Positions 1,859 to 47,500 of a stretch of DNA of 64,000 nt are shown here, in pieces (position 1 is the stretch's first letter; every line of letters begins with the position of its first letter). Source of the DNA: Branchiostoma floridae (lineage: Eukaryota; Chordata; Leptocardii; Amphioxiformes; Branchiostomatidae). The stretch is from assembly GCF_000003815.2 (NCBI RefSeq), contig NC_049980.1:18812059-18876058 (forward strand). Direction: 5' to 3'. The notes beneath the pieces were generated by a model that saw only the letters and a program-made list of their open reading frames with translations, had not been told where the DNA came from and searched no databases. A program made the translations under genes and the position numbers.

Positions 1859-4800
1859 TTATACACTACTAGCAATCTGTTTGTGCACTCTGGCTGTTGC
1901 AGCACTGTCCAGTATTCTTTGTCGAAGAAACACTGCAGCATATCCTGCCACAAAGACTCCAAACCAGACCCCCTCAAACATCCAGAAGGTATTCTCCTCT
2001 GCTCGCATGTTGTGACAACTGAAGAATAGGTGAACATGGAACAGGGGAAGAGTTGTCATAAATGGTGGGTACTGGTATGGTGCACCTGTACAAAACCAGT
2101 TACTGATTCATATTGGACCAGTCTGGAAAAACTGGACCTGAAAGGATTCAGTGGACCGGATGTTGGACCTTGAACAATGATTGGAAAATGAACAGCTTAC
2201 TCTTGTTCATTAATGAACTTACAGTACTAGTATATGATCAGGCATTCACACGTTTTTGGGCTTACCGGTCTAACAAAATAACAAGCAAAGTAGAGTAGAG
2301 TCTATAATCATTTCTACAAGTTTTAGAGTCAGTCATACAAAGGCAGTTAGCCTTGCAGGATTTTAAAATGCCAGTGGGAGTCAAATACTCCACAAAACAG
2401 ATTTCTTTGTAGCAAAATGGACCATTGTTTTGAGCATCATCCATTCACAAGTTTTCACATACCGAATCAGGTCCAGGTTCAGAGCTTGACCTGATTCTCT
2501 GGACCTGAACCAGACCTGAACCTGAATTTTCTTAACCGTTACCCACCTCAAGTTACTGGTGTTTCTGGGTAAATGTTATTCCATTGGGAAAGGCACTTTT
2601 AATTTTCCTCGCTCCACCCAGGTGTAAATGAGTTCCTGACTTCGGTTGGGAAGGTAAAAAGGCCTTGGAATTTGAGGGGTAGGCTCCCATTTCCAATACT
2701 GAGCCTAGACACAACAGATTACCGGCTCACTGCCTCAAACTTAAGGCCTTTATCTTTTTTCACTGCTAACAAATTCTAAGATGACAAATGAACCTAATTT
2801 TACCTTCTGTAAACCTCTCCTGAGCTCTTGCAAGATACTCTCTCCACATATCCCGTCACAGAGCACACAGGAACTGAGTTACTGGTCTGTAGACAAGAAA
2901 CAAATAAAGGAATCAAAGACTGCTGCAGTTCCATGAAAAGCTGCCAGGAGTCTCAAAATTGACACCTAAGCTACATAGACCAAATTACAAGTATCACATA
3001 TATACATCTACAGCTTCTTTAAAATCATTTGATGGACGGCCAGTGTGACTGCAGTGTGACTTGATAGTTAAATGATTTTACCATTATCATGCTGAAGAAA
3101 CCTTTCGGCCATGACCTAGTATCAAACAGTGTTACTGTTATTATCATTATCATAATTGTTACTATCACATTATGTTAGAACATACCAATTCAAACTGTTT
3201 ACATGGTCTGCATTTCTCTATCACTTCATATTTCTCCTGTAGCCAGCATTCTTCAGAACCTGCAGGAAACAATGGGTTTTGATCAACAACAAAAAAGACA
3301 ATGCCAGTGAAATTTTGAAATAACAACCCCATCCTTAAATTTGAAATACTGTAAATGGGGATTTAATTTTGCGGAAGCGGGAAAAAGGACTTTTCGCGGT
3401 GGTTCTAAGTTCACGGTAGCACCATGCACTGTAATCTCTTCTTGCCATGGAAAAATGTTCGCGAACATAAAACCACCACGTAAGTTTCTGCATTTACAGT
3501 ATTCAGAACAAGACCCAAGCTGGAAGTGCCCTACAGGACATCCCAGAAGAAGGTGGCACGGGTAGACCCCTGTGAGAATTTGCTCGTATGCAATTTACGT
3601 CAACATAGATTAAGTTCTCCAAATGGTAACAAGTATTGATTAATGTCAAAGTGTTGGTAAATTTCTCATTAAGATACTGGTGAAAACTGCACAATGTTCG
3701 CATTTGTGGATAAGCTGAGGCAAGTCCGAGAGTGCGGACATGCTAGTGCGTTCCCGTCCGTTGACAATGGTGCAGAATGGGTGGCTCATGACCAAATTCC
3801 CATAGGGCCTATGAAGTGAGTTTACCCGTGGGTGGAAGAACACCTTTGACTATGGATGGAGGATTACTGATACTGCCCTGCATTAGCACCTTCCTGTTTA
3901 ATTGTGGTGGCCAGGTAAAAACTCATGAAAATGACTAAAATGTACCAAGAGAATGAATAACTGATGTGGAAAAAGCAGAAATACTAAACAAATTCTTCGT
4001 TAGTACTTTTACTAAAGAAGACACAAGGTGTATACCACAACCTGAAGAGTCAACATACAAACAGGAGTTGAAAGGCATTGAACTAGATATCGAAGATATT
4101 CAAAAATGTCTATAGAAACTCAACCCCAACAAGTCCATGGGACCAGACCAGATTCACCCTAGAGTCCTAAAAGAGCTTGCTGGAACGCTGGCTCCACCTT
4201 TGTACATTCTCTTTCAAAAGTCACTGAACGAGGGAGAGGTGCCAACAGACTGGAAAATTGGAAACATTACTCCACTCTTCAAGAAAGGCTGTAGAAAAAC
4301 TCCAGGCAACTACAGACCCGTGTGCCTAACTTCCGTGGTTGGCAAAGTTCTGGAGGGTATAATAAGGGATGAGATTATAAAACACATGAGAAGGAATGAA
4401 CTTTTTACACGACAACAGCATGGGTTCCTCCCTGGAAGATCCACAGTAACACAAATCCTGGAATGTTTGGAAAGCTGGACGACCTGGCTAGACCAAGGTA
4501 TACCTGTGGATGTAATCTACATGGATTTCCGCAAGGCCTTCGACTCAGTTCCCATACAAAAGCTTTTGAGGAAAGTAGAAAGTTATGGGATCAAGGGGAG
4601 CCTCCTCAAATGGATAGCCTCGTTTCTCGAAAATAGAAAACAAAGGGTGTGTGTCAACGATAGTCATTCACGGTGGTCGGAGGTACACAGTGGAGTCCCG
4701 CAAGGGAGTGTTCTTGGACCAGTGTTATTCACAATATTCGTGAATGATATGCAAAATGCAGTTACCTGTCACTTAAAATTGTTTGCGGATGACACAAAAA

Positions 4801-6192
4801 TCTACCGAACAGTACCATACAGGCGTGACTGTGAAACACTACAACAAGACCTGGACAGTCTGCAGTTATGGGCTTCAAGGTGGCAACTTCAATTTCACCC
4901 AGATAAATGCACCCAAACTTCTCATACAAAATGAAGACGAAGCAAATCCCTTGCCTCTGTCCCTAGAATTCACGGAGGAAGAGAAAGACCTCGGAATTAT
5001 TGTAGACAAGGACCTGGGTTTTAACAAACACATCCTTACCATAACAAAGAAGGCAAATCAGATAATGGGACTGGTATGGAGAACATTTGAGTTTATGGAC
5101 AAATGTATGTTTTTAACCCCGTACAAGTCTATCATCCGTCCTCATCTAGAGTATGGAGCAAGTGTATGGTCTCCTCACCTATGGTCACTGGCAATCGAAA
5201 TTGAGAAAGTGCAAAAAAGGGCAACCAAAAGAGTACCGGGTCTGGCGGATCTACCCTACCCAGAGAGGCTTAGGAGTCTTCACCTCCCCACATTGGTATA
5301 TAGAAGACTAAGAGGCGACTTAATATACACCTTTAAATACACGAAAGGACTATACGACACTCCATGTTTAGTCCACTTGTCTGTAGAAACAAGAACAAGA
5401 GGTCACCAGTTGAAATTAAAAAGATCCATGGCAAAAATCGGGCCGTCAGCTGGTGGAACAATCTCCCAGAGGAAGTAGTGATGGCACCAACTGTGAACGG
5501 TTTTAAAGCAAGATTTGACAAACATCATTACATATGAAAGATCATCCTGTCGTATACAACTACAGGGCACTGGACCATCCCTTACGTCCGGAAATGTCAG
5601 TATCCTGAGTATTCCGAATTGAAGAGCAGGCCAAACTGGAGTGGATACTCCTACCGGACTGAAAAACTCTACTCTACTCTAAATGGCAGTTGAAATGATA
5701 AGAGTTGATGTCAAACTGTTAAAACAAAAGAGTATTTAGAGGGGGAGTACAGCTTACCTGTGACAGCCTGGCCAGAGCTCTTGACATCTGAGTTCTCAGC
5801 TGCTGATAAACAATGGAGGCTGCAGAGGTACACATTCAGCTGTTACGTGACATCTCTGATTGTCTGAATTCTTTGTGGCAGAAATAAGACTCACATACAC
5901 ACACACACACGCACACACAAGAACATAGGCACAGACTAGAGAGTAGACACACATGCGCATACATATGCTGACACAGAAACACATACTAACACACACTCAC
6001 TCACACACACACACACACACATACACATAACGTTACGTGTATTATTTAACGTTATGCCGTTTGTAAATTCTATATCTGAAACAACAAGAGGGGACACACA
6101 CACGCGTGCAGAGAGAGAGAGAGAACTCACCTTGAATACGTGAAGAATATATAAAGCAACACGGGTTTTGACAACCTTATTGGAGTTGACAT
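1859..6192 (-). CDS. JTB: JTB (jumping translocation breakpoint) homologue, five exons
   Basis: Single-pass type I membrane protein; the human family member is linked to mitochondria and cytokinesis. Coding exons in transcript order: 6131-6192, 5758-5819, 3186-3259, 2804-2886, 1859-2018; all introns are GT-AG and the phases join to 146 codons plus stop, the same length as I recall for human JTB. Residues 1 to about 27 form a hydrophobic signal peptide (VLLYIFF core) ending LSA. The ectodomain has cysteines 46, 58, 61, 74, 85 and 95 in the family pattern CW..., C-x2-C, TGYVE..., SC. Residues about 106-125 are the membrane span, preceded by the family hallmark FWxFEG and followed by a basic tail beginning RQR. 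The start is the only ATG in exon 1 that leads into the signal peptide. Intron 2 carries an antisense CR1-like LINE. No clear AATAAA was seen downstream. Identification rests on recalled family sequence; splice sites are read directly. Confidence 0.9.
3957..5681 (+). mobile_element. CR1/L2-like LINE, 5'-truncated and frameshifted
   Basis: Remnant of a non-LTR retrotransposon of the Jockey/CR1 group. Reverse transcriptase is readable in frame from 3957: motifs NYRPV, HGF-PGRST, YMDFRKAFDSV, GVPQGSVLGP and the catalytic FADD near 4789. A stop lies at 4113, a frameshift near 4910 moves reading to the next frame (DLGIIVDKDLGF, RPHLEYGASVW), and a second near 5430 returns it to the first, ending with WWNNLPEEV...FKARFDKH and a stop at 5535-5537. 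The endonuclease domain is absent, as expected for 5' truncation. The 3' tail ends in a short CTCTA repeat near 5680. It sits in JTB intron 2, antisense to the gene. Inactive. Confidence 0.93.
5891..6124. repeat. CA/GA microsatellites in JTB intron 1
   Basis: Interrupted AC runs at 5891-6022 and a short GA run at 6111-6124, between JTB exons 1 and 2. Long open frames across this stretch are artefacts of the repeat. Confidence 0.85.
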
Positions 6193-6431
6193 TATCTTTT
6201 TCGATACCAGTTTTTCTTCTGTCCTGAACGTTTTCTAATGTGTTTCGTCAACACAGAACATAACTCTGAACCCGGATATGATGTGACGAAACGCGACAGA
6301 GGTTTGCCGAGTTCCTACAACGTTGAGTGCCTGGAGTGGGTCCTATTTGCTGTCATGGGTCGTCAGGTAGTATCTGTTGGCCTTTTAGCTCGTGAATCTA
6401 AAGCTGGTTGGAACAGATAGGGACAGAAACT

Positions 6432-6521
6432 ATGGCTGATGACTCACAGAACATGTCCCCTTACTCATCCGGCTTCGACAGAGTGACCCCGAGTGACCCG
6501 TGTTCATCTAAACGCAAATAA
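6432..6521 (+). CDS. 29-codon small ORF, hypothetical
   Basis: ATG at 6432 gives a 29-residue hydrophilic peptide beginning MADDSQNMSPYSSG and ending in SSKRK, with the stop overlapping an AATAAA at 6517-6522. It lies about 240 bp upstream of the JTB start on the opposite strand, so it could belong to a divergently transcribed unit. I do not recognise the peptide. It may be chance; the composition and the polyadenylation-like signal are the only support. Confidence 0.15.
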   Translation: MADDSQNMSPYSSGFDRVTPSDPCSSKRK

Positions 6522-38357: not shown

Positions 38358-39092
<735 letters not shown>

Positions 39093-41545: not shown

Positions 41546-44500
41546 ATGAGGGTTGAAAAGTGTTTCTTCTGTTCCAGTCCGATTTATCCTGGCCACGGGA
41601 TGCAGTTTGTTAGAAACGACTGTAAGGTAAGGTTTGGTCACATTTTGTTCCGAGGAGGCTGTACAGGAAAGAGAAGGGCACTGTCTTGTGGCATGTGCGT
41701 AGCTAGCCCCCCTCCCCCGGCGCATGGATAACATGTGCTAACTTGCTTGAAGTTCACTTTGTGTCATAACAGAAGTTAAACCAGGACAACAATAACATTA
41801 TTTATGAGAGTTGAGTTGAATTGCCCTTCGAGGAACAGGCGTATCCACACGCACACTGTAAGGCCCCTTTTTGATGTAAAAATCAAAACTGTTGTAACAG
41901 TGGGGTTCTAGCGCTGCCAAACTGACCACGCCAACAGCTCTTGAGCTTTTGGTGTTGTGGTTAGCACGTTGGATTTGTGATCCGGCTGCCCGGGTTCGGC
42001 GCGGGTTCGAATCCCGGGAGTCGGGGTGTTGTTTCTTTCTGTTCTTACTCGCCCCTCTGAATTTCTACAATGGTTCCCACGCCGGCCCTGTGAGTAACAG
42101 GCTAGTATGTGCCACACAGGGATGTCGATCTCGGAGATTCGAGGACGAATCTTGAAAAGAAAAGGGGGAGTAGTGTAACAGTGGGGTTCTAGCGCTGCCA
42201 AACTGACCACGCCAACAGCTCTTGAGCTTTTGGTGTTGTGGTTAGCACGTTGGATTTGTGATCCGGCTGCCCGGGTTCGGCGCGGGTTCGAATCCCGGGA
42301 GTCGGGGTGTTGTTTCTTTCTGTTCTTACTCGCCCCTCTGAATTTCTACACTGTTTTATATGGCTCCGCTGGCCTTGGCTTGCAACCACACTCAAACTGT
42401 TTCAGTTCGTTGAAAAGAGATCTCTCTCCCAAAGCTTTTATGAGCCAGCACAGCATAATCTTGTACCTATGTATCAGATGTGTTCTGTTTTTCCGGTAAT
42501 GGCCATGTGCCAAGGAATCAGCAATTACTGACATTATTCTTACCTGATGATACGCCATTCCAAAAGATAAATGTGGAGTGGGTTGAAGAGGTCGGATTTT
42601 ATCCAAGTTGCACCCCCTTTTTGATTTTACCCGAGTGCCCCGACTCCCCTTTGATTTAATCCAAGCGCATCAATCCCCTGTATATAATTTCATCCGAGAC
42701 CTCAACCCCCCTCTGATTTCATCCAAATTCCAAATGTGTCTATCCCCCTTTTATTTCATCCCAGTGCCCTTGTTATGTATTGTATTGTATCGTATATTAT
42801 GTAATTGTATTTGAATTTGTTTATTGTAACTGTCGCGTTCTGGCGGCCCTTCTTCGGAGTAAACAACAACAACTCGACGTGTTCGAACGGGCGGTGGCCC
42901 CGTCCGGAGAAGAGTGTTCTAGAACCGCCAGAACGCGACCAGTAATGTGATTCAAAATAAAGTCAGTCTTGTCTTGATCGTCTTACAAGTGTGACGTTTG
43001 TCTTGTGTGTCTCCGTCTTTGGTTGGTCTTCCATCCAACATTGGCGCCCAACGGTGGGATGCCGCTTTCGAGCGGCCGGACCCGTGATGAAACACCATCC
43101 TAAGGCCCTCTGCCCGCTACCGTGTCGCCCGACTCGCCCGGAGACCATCGGCCAACCGCCTGATCACCCGACAACGTCTACCATGTGTCAAGCCGTCTCC
43201 GCTCGCTGCCGCTGTCGACAGAGCCCGACTCCACTCCACCCTGACGCCGTCCGTCGCCGACCGCGTGTACACCAAGGACCCGTCCCTGGGCGCTGTCCGC
43301 GTCGATCAGAGCTACCCGTGTCACCAACCGTGAACTTTTGAGAATGAGCACCGGCGAAAACTTCTGCTGTGACCAGACCGAACTGTAAAAGGGCCTCTAC
43401 TTGCTCCAGGAAGGCCACTGAACTGTCATGCCGCAAGACCTGCGAACTTGAAATGTACTGCTGCACGATCTCCTGTCCAATGTGTTATGTATTTTGTCTG
43501 GAGAGTATTGTGATATTGAGTATTGTGGTGCTTACCTAGGGAGAACTAGAGCCTGCGGGACGACACTCCTAGGAAGAAGACTACTTTGTCCTTTGTCAGA
43601 ACCTGCGAGGTTGCTGATTGTCAAGGAAATATTGTCACGTTGATTGAATTTTGTATATTGAAACTATTTGAACTGATGCTTACCAAGTATACTAGTAGAA
43701 TCAATGACATTATTGATGCCTGCGGGGCGACTACTGCTAGTAAGACTATCCTGACCACACTGAGGGTGTGCCCACATGTATTGTTTGTGTTTTAAGATAG
43801 CGTTCTCTATGCCTTGACCGTAAGCCTGCGGGATAACGTTGATGCCTTGTTGAACCTATGCTGTGCTGTATTCTGAATTTTGACTGTATGATGCTTGCCT
43901 AAGGAGCGCTGATGTCTGCAGGACGTCTCTCCTAGGAAGATCAATGGTTGTATGATGCTCGCCTTAGGAGATAGAATGATTGCCTACGGGCTGACCCTAT
44001 TCCTAAGTGCTTAAACTTGATGTGGAAACTGCGTGTACTTGCCTAGCTAGATGTGGAAACTGTGTATTTGTAGCTACATAGAACGACTGCCTGCGGGCCG
44101 ACCCTATGGAATGTTTGATATGTCCAATGTACAGTAGTTCTGTGCCTTGAAATACTTCGAAGTGGTGAGTCCACAGAAATATTTTTAGTATTGTAAGCGA
44201 AACCTATAACTAGCTTAGACTTGATTTTAAAAGATATATGATTAGATTTGGTGAGATAACTAGCAGGTGAGGACACCTGCTAACTTGAGGGGGGAGGAAT
44301 GTTATGTATTGTATTGTATCGTATATTATGTAATTGTATTTGAATTTGTTTATTGTAACTGTCGCGTTCTGGCGGCCCTTCTTCGGAGTAAACAACAACA
44401 ACTCGACGTGTTCGAACGGGCGGTGGCCCCGTCCGGAGAAGAGTGTTCTAGAACCACCAGAACGCGACCAGTAATGTGATTCAAAATAAAGTCAGTCTTG

Positions 44501-47500
44501 TCTTGATCGTCTTACAAGTGTGACGTTTGTCTTGTGTGTCTCCGTCTTTGGTTGGTCTTCCATCCAACACCCTTATCCGCTCTTCACCCGCGCTGAACCT
44601 TGATCCTGATGTGCCAGATGCGCGTTAATCTGGGGCAGTTAAACTATTTGCCCAATCTTTTAATGCTTCGCAGGAGGGGATACTAGCACAGATTTTAAAA
44701 TGATAGCCCTGGTGCGTTTTGAAGCAGAGGCGAGGGGAGTGAGCCGGTAAAAATCCCGGAGTGAGCCGGTAAAAATCCCGGCCACTTCTAATGGTTTCAA
44801 AACAGCCGAGAGTTTGTTCAGAAAAATATCTTGCTATAATCTGTTTTGGAGCATTCATGGTGTCAGATTACTACTTGGCTAAAATGAATTTAACTATTTT
44901 TTGCACCCCTGCAAAAATAAATGAGCTTACAGTACTTTGAGATTTGAGCAAAAGAAGTAATACATCAAAACAATTACTAGGATACATTAATGTTGTAATA
45001 AGTTAACAGATGAATGATGTCCACATCAATATGACATTCACTCCATGCATATTTAACAAGTAGTTTAATGATTTTACTGTTGTAAGTTTAAGTTAAAACA
45101 TTTCTTTTCTGTCCTGTTGTAGATCTTCAGGTTTTGCCGATCAAAATGCCACAGAGCATTCAAGAAGAAGAGGAATCCTCGGAAGGTGCGCTGGACCAAG
45201 GCCTTCAGGAAAGCTGCAGGAAAAGACCTGGCTGTGGTGTGTATTTTTTTCTTTGTAGAATAGTTGTCTACTAGTATCTCAATTGCTACCTCCGGGATGT
45301 ACCACGGGGTATTGTTTTTGATTGTGTATGTGTGACTACACCTTAAGCTAAGTTATAAGTCTTTTGGGTGGATTTGTATGAATTTTGGTATGTAGTTGCT
45401 TTTTCAGTCCCCAAAGAAACTGACAATTTGGGACCTCCCTAGCAGGATGTTCAGGTACTGCAGCATTTCAGCAGGAAAACCCCTTCCTGAAGCCAACATG
45501 GTCCAACTGGCCATAGAATAAGGAAAGCAAATGGTCCATTATGGGAGGGAGATACGTTGTAGAAATAAAGTATGACACTATGAAGGTGGTACAAGGGAGC
45601 AGTGTATCTTGGTAAAGGGGATGATGCAGATTTCTGTGGAGTTTGTCATTCTAAGACTGACTGAGAGTAAGGGAGAGAATCCTGAAAGTATGAGGGCTCA
45701 GTGCCTCTGTTCCCTGTTTAAGAAAAAAAAAGTCATTTATGTTCTTATCTTGTTTTCTTATTCTAGGATGCTTCTCTGGAGTTTGAGAAGAGGAGGAATG
45801 TTCCAGCCAAGTATAACAGGGAGCAATGGAAGGACACAAGTAAGAATCTATTCTTACATCTGAGTCTGATGGATTCCAAAGCTTGTGTTCTTTAATCATT
45901 GACATGCATACAATGATGTCCATGTAATGTTATACCAATTTAGAATTGAAATGCTTGGTCTCGGTCACCATATGCAAGTGACAAGTCGCTTAAAATGCTT
46001 GTCATAAAACTCTATGGGGGGGGGGGCACTGAATTTGCACCTGCTACAATCAATGGTGAATTAAAGTGCAGTAGCTCATAGAAAAAGGCAGACCAGTTGT
46101 CTTGAATTTGGTGCATGTGTTCTACAATGCTGTTCATCCAGTGTGTCTGGCTTCAATTTGTGTTTATGCTAAGGATATTCTGTATATTTTGACTTTCTCT
46201 TCATTTGCAGTTAAGGCAATGAAAAGAGTAGAAGACATCAAGAGTAAGAGGCAGGCCCAGTTCATTCTCAACAGGTATGTTAAGTGTGTATATCTACCTG
46301 CAGTTCCAAGCCTAAATGTAAGGAGGTGCTATTATGCTGTTAGTTTACAAGCTGTGTCCCTATGTGATGCCTGATGGCTGAGTGAAAATACTGTGTAGCT
46401 ATGTGGAAAAAATAATCTTTTGGCAATGTGTGACATATTTTACTTAGTATGTGTAAGCCATGCCAATCAAATTTCTTGGCATTCAAAAAAGCAAATAAAC
46501 ATGGATACAATACCAGATGAACGAAGATGAGGAAATGAAACTGGATCAAACAGTTATATACTCCATCTAATTTTCTTCATGTTCAGAATAACCAATCCTG
46601 CATTTTTGCAAACCAGGTGAGTGTCAACTTGAGCTCTACATCCAGAGGCAGAATTGCTCACTGCTAGACAACACACGCTATGTCAACTCTTTTTAGACAG
46701 CTGTTTGACTCAAAGGTCTGTCAACCAAAGTCATGTTAGATAGGGAAAAGGTTGAACATGTTGTTTGTACTTCCAGACTGAAGAAGGGGAAGGAGCTGCA
46801 AAAGGAGGCTGATATTCGGGAGGTCAAACAGAACATCAGCCTCATCAAGTCTCCTGCTGGTAAGTCATGTCATTGTGGTGTACAAATGTGTGATTGCATC
46901 GTAGACAAGTTCTTGGGAATAAAGATCATCTTTAACGTCATGCACAAGGATGTTTGCCTGTAATTACCTCTGTGTGGGATTATCTCAAGCACCAGACTTG
47001 TTCTCAGACTTAAGCCTGTGTTTTGTCTTAACGGTTTGGGATAATCTGCGCAGACTGACTACAGAGACATACCAATAGGCTAGTTATGTTCATCAAAGAT
47101 CTTGAACGTTCTTGATACTGCTGTACTGAAACTTTATTTAAGTTAGAGGGACATAAAACGAGGCATTTGTAGCATGCTATTAAAAGTTAGTGGTGGGCAT
47201 GGAGAGTGCATCACTGACAGAAAACTGTTTTGTGTGCCAGTGCTCAAAACAGCCCAGGCGGCAACCTGAGTCAAAAACCAGGTTGGTCCATCAACATTTC
47301 AGGTTGCCTCACTCCCAGGACATTACTTTCTTCAAGTCAGCTATTCATCCATATCTTTTCTTGCAGTTACATGTAACTATGTTTATCTTGTCAAGAAATA
47401 AATACAAAAGCATATGCACGTTGGTGTGTACAAAATTTCAGGTTGCATACTTCGCTACCTGGGTTTAAAATTAAGTTGTGCCAAGCAAAACATGGTTGCA

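Follow-up and report, generated by a model that had tools for sequence, protein, structure and literature searches.

The element at positions 41893 to 42350 of the 64,000-nucleotide stretch of the Branchiostoma floridae genome analysed here (the window, whose numbering is used below) is a real and recently active miniature LTR retrotransposon (TRIM), an ordinary copy of a family of the Helenus group. We consider, with a probability of about 0.88 for the reading as a whole, that this family is a Helenus-group TRIM whose LTRs each contain a putative Pol III promoter derived from a tRNA, that it is primed by tRNA-Glu and presumably mobilised by Gypsy elements, and that read-through of the primer has given rise to fusions with that tRNA. 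The novelty sits in this primer read-through record of its relatives, and not in the element of the window.

A Helenus family in the lancelet genome

The element, read on the forward strand, consists of two 177-bp LTRs and a 104-bp interior, 458 bp in all. The 5′ LTR (41893–42069), which belongs to a type that we call A, and the 3′ LTR (42174–42350) run from TGTAAC to TTCTACA and are identical at 177 of 177 bases; the repeat search returns 183 nt at a spacing of 281 bp because a few adjoining bases match too. The target site duplication (TSD), CTGT, lies on either side (41889–41892 and 42351–42354). The interior (42070–42173) encodes no protein, and it holds a 15-nt primer binding site (PBS), TGGTTCCCACGCCGG (42071–42085), and a polypurine tract (PPT) of 17 purines, GAAAAGAAAAGGGGGAG (42154–42170), which is followed by TAG and then by the 3′ LTR. 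An initial annotation of this DNA had described the TG...CA ends, the CTGT duplication, the PBS, the PPT and the 104-bp interior, all of which the sequence confirms, and had taken the likeness of the two LTRs as a sign of recent movement; their identity holds base for base, and we likewise judge the element to have been active recently. Another locus, L020, carries an LTR identical to that of the window element. Just downstream lies a second LTR element (42771–44569), with near-identical direct repeats of about 270 bp (42771–43040 and 44300–44569, TGTTATG...CAACA) 1529 bp apart, CCCT on either side and a PBS-like TGGCGCCCAACGGTGGG after the first repeat, and 2.8 kb upstream of the TRIM is a polyubiquitin gene (38402–39085) of three tandem 228-bp units, the start of which translates as ubiquitin by eye.

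In searches of the LTR and the interior against the 513-Mb assembly of the same species, at least 45 LTR matches were found (the best 40 of 1295 candidates were scored), most of them end to end and many of them paired 281 bp apart, and 39 of the best 40 interior matches (492 candidates) agreed with all 104 bases at 100%. For the TSDs, the sample was 30 interior matches with loci (L009–L038), from which eight with a common flank, the nested group discussed below, were set aside; 15 of the remaining 22 have both LTRs complete. Exact 4-bp TSDs, each different, surround 14 of these 15 copies, and in the last one, L019, the TSD matches at three of four bases. Eleven further loci around LTR matches include eight single LTRs, six of them with an exact 4-bp TSD and two without a clear one (L091 has none, and L093 lies within a TG repeat). 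Thus, the copies show insertion of the integrase type, with 4-bp duplications. The PBS 15-mer has 133 exact matches in the genome (backward control, 0), and a variant of the PBS that has A at base 11 and continues with CCC occurs 38 times (control, 0).

These data decide between the TRIM that the initial annotation favoured and the alternative that it had itself named, a tRNA-derived SINE duplicated in tandem without LTR-type replication. tRNA-like boxes do occur in every 177-bp unit, and pairs of PBS sequences at a spacing of 281 bp, found at two places, suggest tandem arrays of LTR and interior, both of which speak for such a duplication. Nevertheless, copies across the genome stop at the same TG...CA borders, exact 4-bp TSDs flank complete copies and solo LTRs in the proportions just given, a PBS and a PPT are present, and copies of the primer tRNA begin at the PBS border. 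A tRNA SINE would be recognised by insertion of the LINE type, variable duplications, a 3′ tail and a single unit, and what we find are constant LTR ends and 4-bp TSDs. We therefore take the TRIM to be correct and reject the tandem SINE, which the ends of the copies already refute and to which we concede hardly any probability. The PBS pairs themselves (G000:C5:28346893/28347174 and C14:15547782/15548063) point to LTR-interior-LTR-interior-LTR arrays, and tandem arrays have likewise been reported for zebrafish Helenus and for Cassandra (PMC10886601). Among the best 40 of 492 interior candidates, there is no intact autonomous partner; judged by PBS length, candidate partners are L098/L136, L109 and L122, with 18–20 nt, and L140, with 15 nt. 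One candidate for a long-interior ancestor, on C17 (L046), was rejected, as it has a normal interior (one mismatch) and another insertion in its 3′ LTR.

Helenus has been described as a group of TRIMs with tRNA-derived sequence in their LTRs, found in fungi, animals and Selaginella (Kojima 2024, PMC10886601), with chordate hosts that include coelacanth, sturgeon and carp-like fishes; its animal members make 4-bp TSDs, and their dependence on Gypsy elements was judged from the likeness of the PBS (PMC10886601). The family described here shares with them the TRIM structure (two LTRs, less than 1000 bp in total, no protein), boxes A and B in each LTR (motifs beyond chance, with no full tRNA recovered), a PBS that matches a tRNA 3′ end (15 nt, tRNA-Glu), a PPT (17 purines) and a 4-bp TSD (seen in the copy of the window and, with the nested group set aside, in 14 of 15 complete copies); tRNA-Glu is named in that paper as the PBS match for some bivalve families. 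It is a further Helenus family, with a tRNA-Glu primer site, and not a new kind. The initial annotation had seen in the element a tRNA-like counterpart of Cassandra and a parallel invention in a chordate; the counterpart is real, but it is not novel, since Helenus was published in 2024 with chordates included (PMC10886601). Cassandra, as portrayed in the same paper, also has a Pol III promoter inside its LTRs and differs in its plant host and in the 5S rRNA of its LTRs, whereas the present family has tRNA-like sequence; an Rfam search of 41800–42450, up to E 1, gave no match to 5S rRNA. The names Branchiostoma, lancelet and amphioxus are absent from the main text of PMC10886601, and the host is not in its Table 1; our literature search, with most subscription journals outside its reach, recognised no earlier TRIM or Helenus from a lancelet. 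The exchange of U3 and box A and the LTR-tRNA fusions that we report below are not described in the abstract, results, discussion or tables of the Helenus paper.

The tRNA-like module and the LTR types

In each LTR, a box A-like motif, TGGTGTTGTGG (41950–41960 and 42231–42241), is followed by box B, GGTTCGAATCC (42004–42014 and 42285–42295). Box B alone occurs twice in the window, where 0.08 matches would be expected, and boxes A and B together also occur twice, against 0.00 in 100 shuffles, with the letters of box A taken from this element. ARAGORN called no tRNA in the LTR, and Rfam (same interval and limit as above) gave for each LTR a T-arm match to the tmRNA model, below the gathering threshold (14.3 bits against 47, E 0.0012; four weaker matches of the same clan were omitted by the tool); no acceptor stem was seen in the LTR. 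The tRNA-like parts that the initial annotation had pointed out therefore stand in so far as a box A-like motif and box B occur in each LTR beyond chance, and fall short of a full tRNA, which neither ARAGORN nor the Rfam search recovered: the likeness of the LTR to a tRNA is partial. The spacing of tRNA genes, which we take to apply here, would put the start of Pol III at about 41930–41940, and the earlier estimate of a start near 41945 may be slightly late.

A second LTR type, B, was compared with type A in six copies. Within LTR bases 12–82, the two types show 22–23 aligned differences, and elsewhere only 1–4; both share U5 and have the same interior, PPT included, whereas U3 and box A differ. 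Box A reads TGGTGTTGTGG in type A and TGGCCGAACGG in type B, both near the box A consensus, and box B is kept. We read this as a probable replacement of U3 and box A by recombination, with U5 and the interior retained. Some elements combine a 5′ LTR of type A with a 3′ LTR of type B, and their interpretation as hybrid products of replication was dropped, as eight of eight have the same flank and four of four that were extended lie within one transposon. The latter (L080, ~2765–6510, and L081–L083) is a DNA transposon of about 3.75 kb without long reading frames, with ends CGCCCATTCCTC...GAGGAATGGGCG, terminal repeats of 12 bp and, by eye, 4-bp duplications in three of four copies. Given the flank common to eight loci and the one larger transposon around the four that were extended, the A/B elements probably represent one amplified event.

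In both LTRs of the window element, box A is immediately preceded by TTTT (41947–41950, the sole TTTT in the LTR, and 42228–42231). Of the LTRs in the genome with a recognisable box A, 83 were counted; TTTT adjoins box A in 65 of them (50 of 68 once the nested group is set aside) and occurs elsewhere in the LTR in 3. The LTRs counted are not independent, since both LTRs of one copy and the eight nested copies are included; among distinct box A surroundings, 21 of 26 have TTTT. By likeness to Cassandra, whose transcript stops inside the 3′ LTR and gives an 18-bp repeat, as told in PMC10886601, we propose that the TTTT of the 3′ LTR would end the Pol III transcript and set a short terminal repeat. 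TTTT is missing beside box A in 18 of the 83 LTRs, and 13 of these 18 are of type B with CTTTATGG, a form that includes recent copies (L026 and L038); thus, TTTT cannot be the sole terminator, and, lying so near the start, it could stop the transcript of the 5′ LTR as well.

It could be argued that the LTR carries its tRNA-like part as a passenger and that Pol II transcribes the element from U3, as it does conventional LTR elements, and that no full tRNA is recovered by ARAGORN or Rfam would fit this view. However, the box A sequences of types A and B differ and yet both are consensus-like, box B is retained, and TTTT adjoins box A far more often than it occurs elsewhere, even if the LTRs counted are not independent. 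We regard the passenger as unlikely and consider that the box A and box B data support a putative Pol III promoter in the LTR. In the main text of the founding paper, Pol III transcription of Helenus is likewise putative (PMC10886601).

Fusions of LTRs with the primer tRNA-Glu

The PBS complements tRNA-Glu(CUC) with its CCA exactly over 15 nt. The gene with that end is L073 (L073:1442-1513), which, among 11 matches to the CGTGGGAA form, is the only one to be a gene without CCA; the commoner isodecoder end, TGTGGGAA, occurs at 17 places without a following C, ten of them on contig C12. Ordinary PBS copies number about 126 with G at base 11 (133 minus seven matches to the fusion pattern described below) and 38 with A, which suggests that the tRNA is the source from which the inner PBS is restored. 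Pairing stops at 15 nt, where the element has CCC instead of GGA, and copying beyond base 15 would leave an unpaired 3′ end, which may account both for dead ends and for the persistence of CCC.

Fusions were sought with a pattern of the 15 PBS bases, with either form of base 11, and a next base other than C; this pattern excludes ordinary copies and leaves the rest of the tRNA unspecified. It occurs at 63 places in the genome and at none in the control; with mismatches allowed, 52 of the 63 extend into tRNA-Glu for 31–75 nt, and the other 11 end after 15–20 nt. The tRNA copy reaches base 11 or lower in 35 cases and base 1 in nine, and in L007, where the automatic end lies some bases too far because flank bases aligned by chance, it ends by eye at CTAGACA. 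In 44 of the 52 fusions, the tRNA copy is preceded by CA plus one base, like the end of an LTR; base 11 is A in 46 and G in six, fitting the isodecoders, and 51 have a T opposite A58. Among the 35 fusions with at least 240 bases upstream, 29 have a Helenus-type box A, three have a Gypsy LTR (L070, L074 and L075), and L076, L105 and L137 have neither. Relative to the ordinary PBS copies, the fusions are not rare. A pattern for tRNAs with CCA (spacing 22–34), which is limited to tRNAs whose D arm contains TAGTGGTTA, namely those for Glu, Val and His, has 36 matches, and 16 of the 17 listed are tRNA-Glu (control, 0).

The fusions start at the U5/PBS border and carry the CCA of the tRNA, which, together with the PBS match, argues for priming by tRNA-Glu; to judge from their sequence, they show that tRNA-Glu has been copied, and we interpret them as the outcome of reverse transcription that did not stop within the primer tRNA at its usual place but continued along it. 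No earlier description of LTR-tRNA fusions was recognised in our literature search, most subscription journals being outside its reach.

What follows the tRNA copy was sorted into four classes, which, like most duplications, were read by eye and cover the named fusions with a resolved upstream flank. In class I, a short LTR end is followed by flank, with exact 4-bp TSDs in four of five testable cases (TAGT in L118, where the LTR end has TATG in place of TACA, CATT in L119, CGAC in L134 and GTTG in L149) and three of four bases in L079. Class II has an inverted LTR start, with CCAC around L125 if one extra G is counted as insert and three of four bases around L139. Class III re-enters the LTR or the interior (L060, L095, L102, L105, L106, L108, L111, L113, L117, L124, L131 and L133); for instance, L060 runs from LTR through tRNA-Glu complement, nine LTR-end bases, PBS and interior to LTR, with CATA on either side. 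In class IV, the flank follows at once or after a few extra bases, as in L007 (LTR, tRNA-Glu complement and flank, with GATA on either side) and L129 (CTTG); CTAG around L128 is ambiguous, and L115 needs one extra G. Exact 4-bp TSDs surround at least six fusions. No duplication was found around L116 and L120, nor around L096, which lies within another LTR; that of L141 is ambiguous, and the LTR start is missing in L099, L104 and L138.

Other origins could be imagined for these fusions, either as SINEs with a tRNA-Glu head and an LTR-complement tail, copied by LINEs, or as tRNA-Glu pseudogenes that abut LTRs by chance. The opposite strand does read tRNA-Glu, CCA and tail, in an order like that of SINEs, and ARAGORN calls tRNAs in four fusions (L070, L072, L074 and L076). 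Against this, several LTR types, including a Gypsy LTR of about 510 bp, are joined at the same border, the end points on the tRNA range from base 1 to about base 45, the duplications found are of 4 bp, and many fusions re-enter their own LTR or interior. We consider both origins very unlikely in comparison with read-through of the primer.

An LTR of another kind is joined to tRNA-Glu in L070, L074, L075 and, by eye, L101. In L075, there is a 5′ LTR from 987 and a second LTR copy from 2986, with the tRNA copy and the end of the pol frame between them, and in L070, which has the same order of LTR, tRNA and pol end, the tRNA is followed by an integrase core (Pfam rve, E 1.3e-13), the stretch covered there not including a 3′ LTR. 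Both look like internally deleted Gypsy elements, the deletion joint of which would be the primer tRNA. The PPT/LTR border of L075, TTGAGGACAAATGTTCGGTGAGGGGGAGGTAG/TGTAAC, resembles that of the TRIM, TTCGAGGACGAATCTTGAAAAGAAAAGGGGGAGTAG/TGTAAC, and this likeness supports a putative mobilisation by such a Gypsy lineage. In L074 (~1183–1447, locus coordinates), the Gypsy LTR-tRNA copy is followed by part of the same LTR in inverted orientation, a fold-back product.

Proposed replication and its implications

We propose that transcription by Pol III would begin in the 5′ LTR, upstream of its box A, cross the interior and stop at the TTTT that precedes box A of the 3′ LTR, so that both ends of the RNA would carry a short repeat of about 10–20 nt. 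The 15-nt PBS would pair with tRNA-Glu, and gag, reverse transcriptase and integrase would come, as the PBS, PPT and TSD suggest, from a Ty3/Gypsy element. The second DNA strand would often copy the primer tRNA past the usual stop, up to its first base, and the read-through plus-strand strong-stop DNA, unable to transfer normally, may jump to an LTR end, to an inverted LTR or to the interior. The products of such jumps would then be inserted, in what we presume to be this order of events.

A review of HIV and mammalian tRNA describes plus-strand strong-stop synthesis as normally halting at m1A58, with unmodified tRNA being copied to its 5′ end, and the HIV-1 read-through product, “P1”, as not usable for the second transfer; it also reports low m1A58 in the tRNA-Glu(UUC) isodecoders packaged in SARS-CoV-2 particles (PMC13191261). 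A missing methyl group at A58 may therefore be the cause of read-through here as well. Read-through strong-stop DNA of HIV-1, as described in that review, resembles the fusions in that an unmodified primer tRNA is copied to its 5′ end and the ends are useless for the second transfer; it differs in that the HIV-1 case comes from in vitro work and, for extension beyond A58, from methyltransferase-mutant cells, whereas here a genome assembly contains dozens of cases and the primer is tRNA-Glu. We offer tentatively, and at somewhat less than even odds, the combined proposal that a sizeable fraction of germ-line tRNA-Glu is without the A58 methyl stop, that the whole primer is often copied, and that template switching rescues the dead-end strong-stop DNAs, which integrase then inserts. 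In 1993, Ohshima, Okada and colleagues reportedly advanced a strong-stop DNA hypothesis for the origin of tRNA SINEs, which predicts tRNA plus CCA plus LTR-derived sequence. The fusions have that predicted structure, but they are dead-end-like insertions, with no SINE-type amplification among the loci examined.

The fusions create tRNA-Glu-like sequences with CCA, and ARAGORN calls tRNA-Glu or tRNA-Asp in four of them, as noted above; thus, counts of tRNA genes in this genome may be inflated. For the family, our results extend TRIMs with a putative Pol III promoter to a cephalochordate genome, with very young copies that make transcription testable. The fusions would constitute a natural record of the behaviour of reverse transcriptase where the primer tRNA ends, which experiments with HIV have described, and dozens of read-through products could be used to count the stops of copying on the tRNA, to test the strong-stop idea of SINE origin, and to see how internal deletions may arise. 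If the combined proposal on germ-line tRNA-Glu is true, the internally deleted Gypsy elements would represent a route to the birth of miniature non-autonomous elements, and the LTR-tRNA chimeras with a complete tRNA-Glu promoter would have the structure that has long been proposed as the seed of tRNA SINEs.
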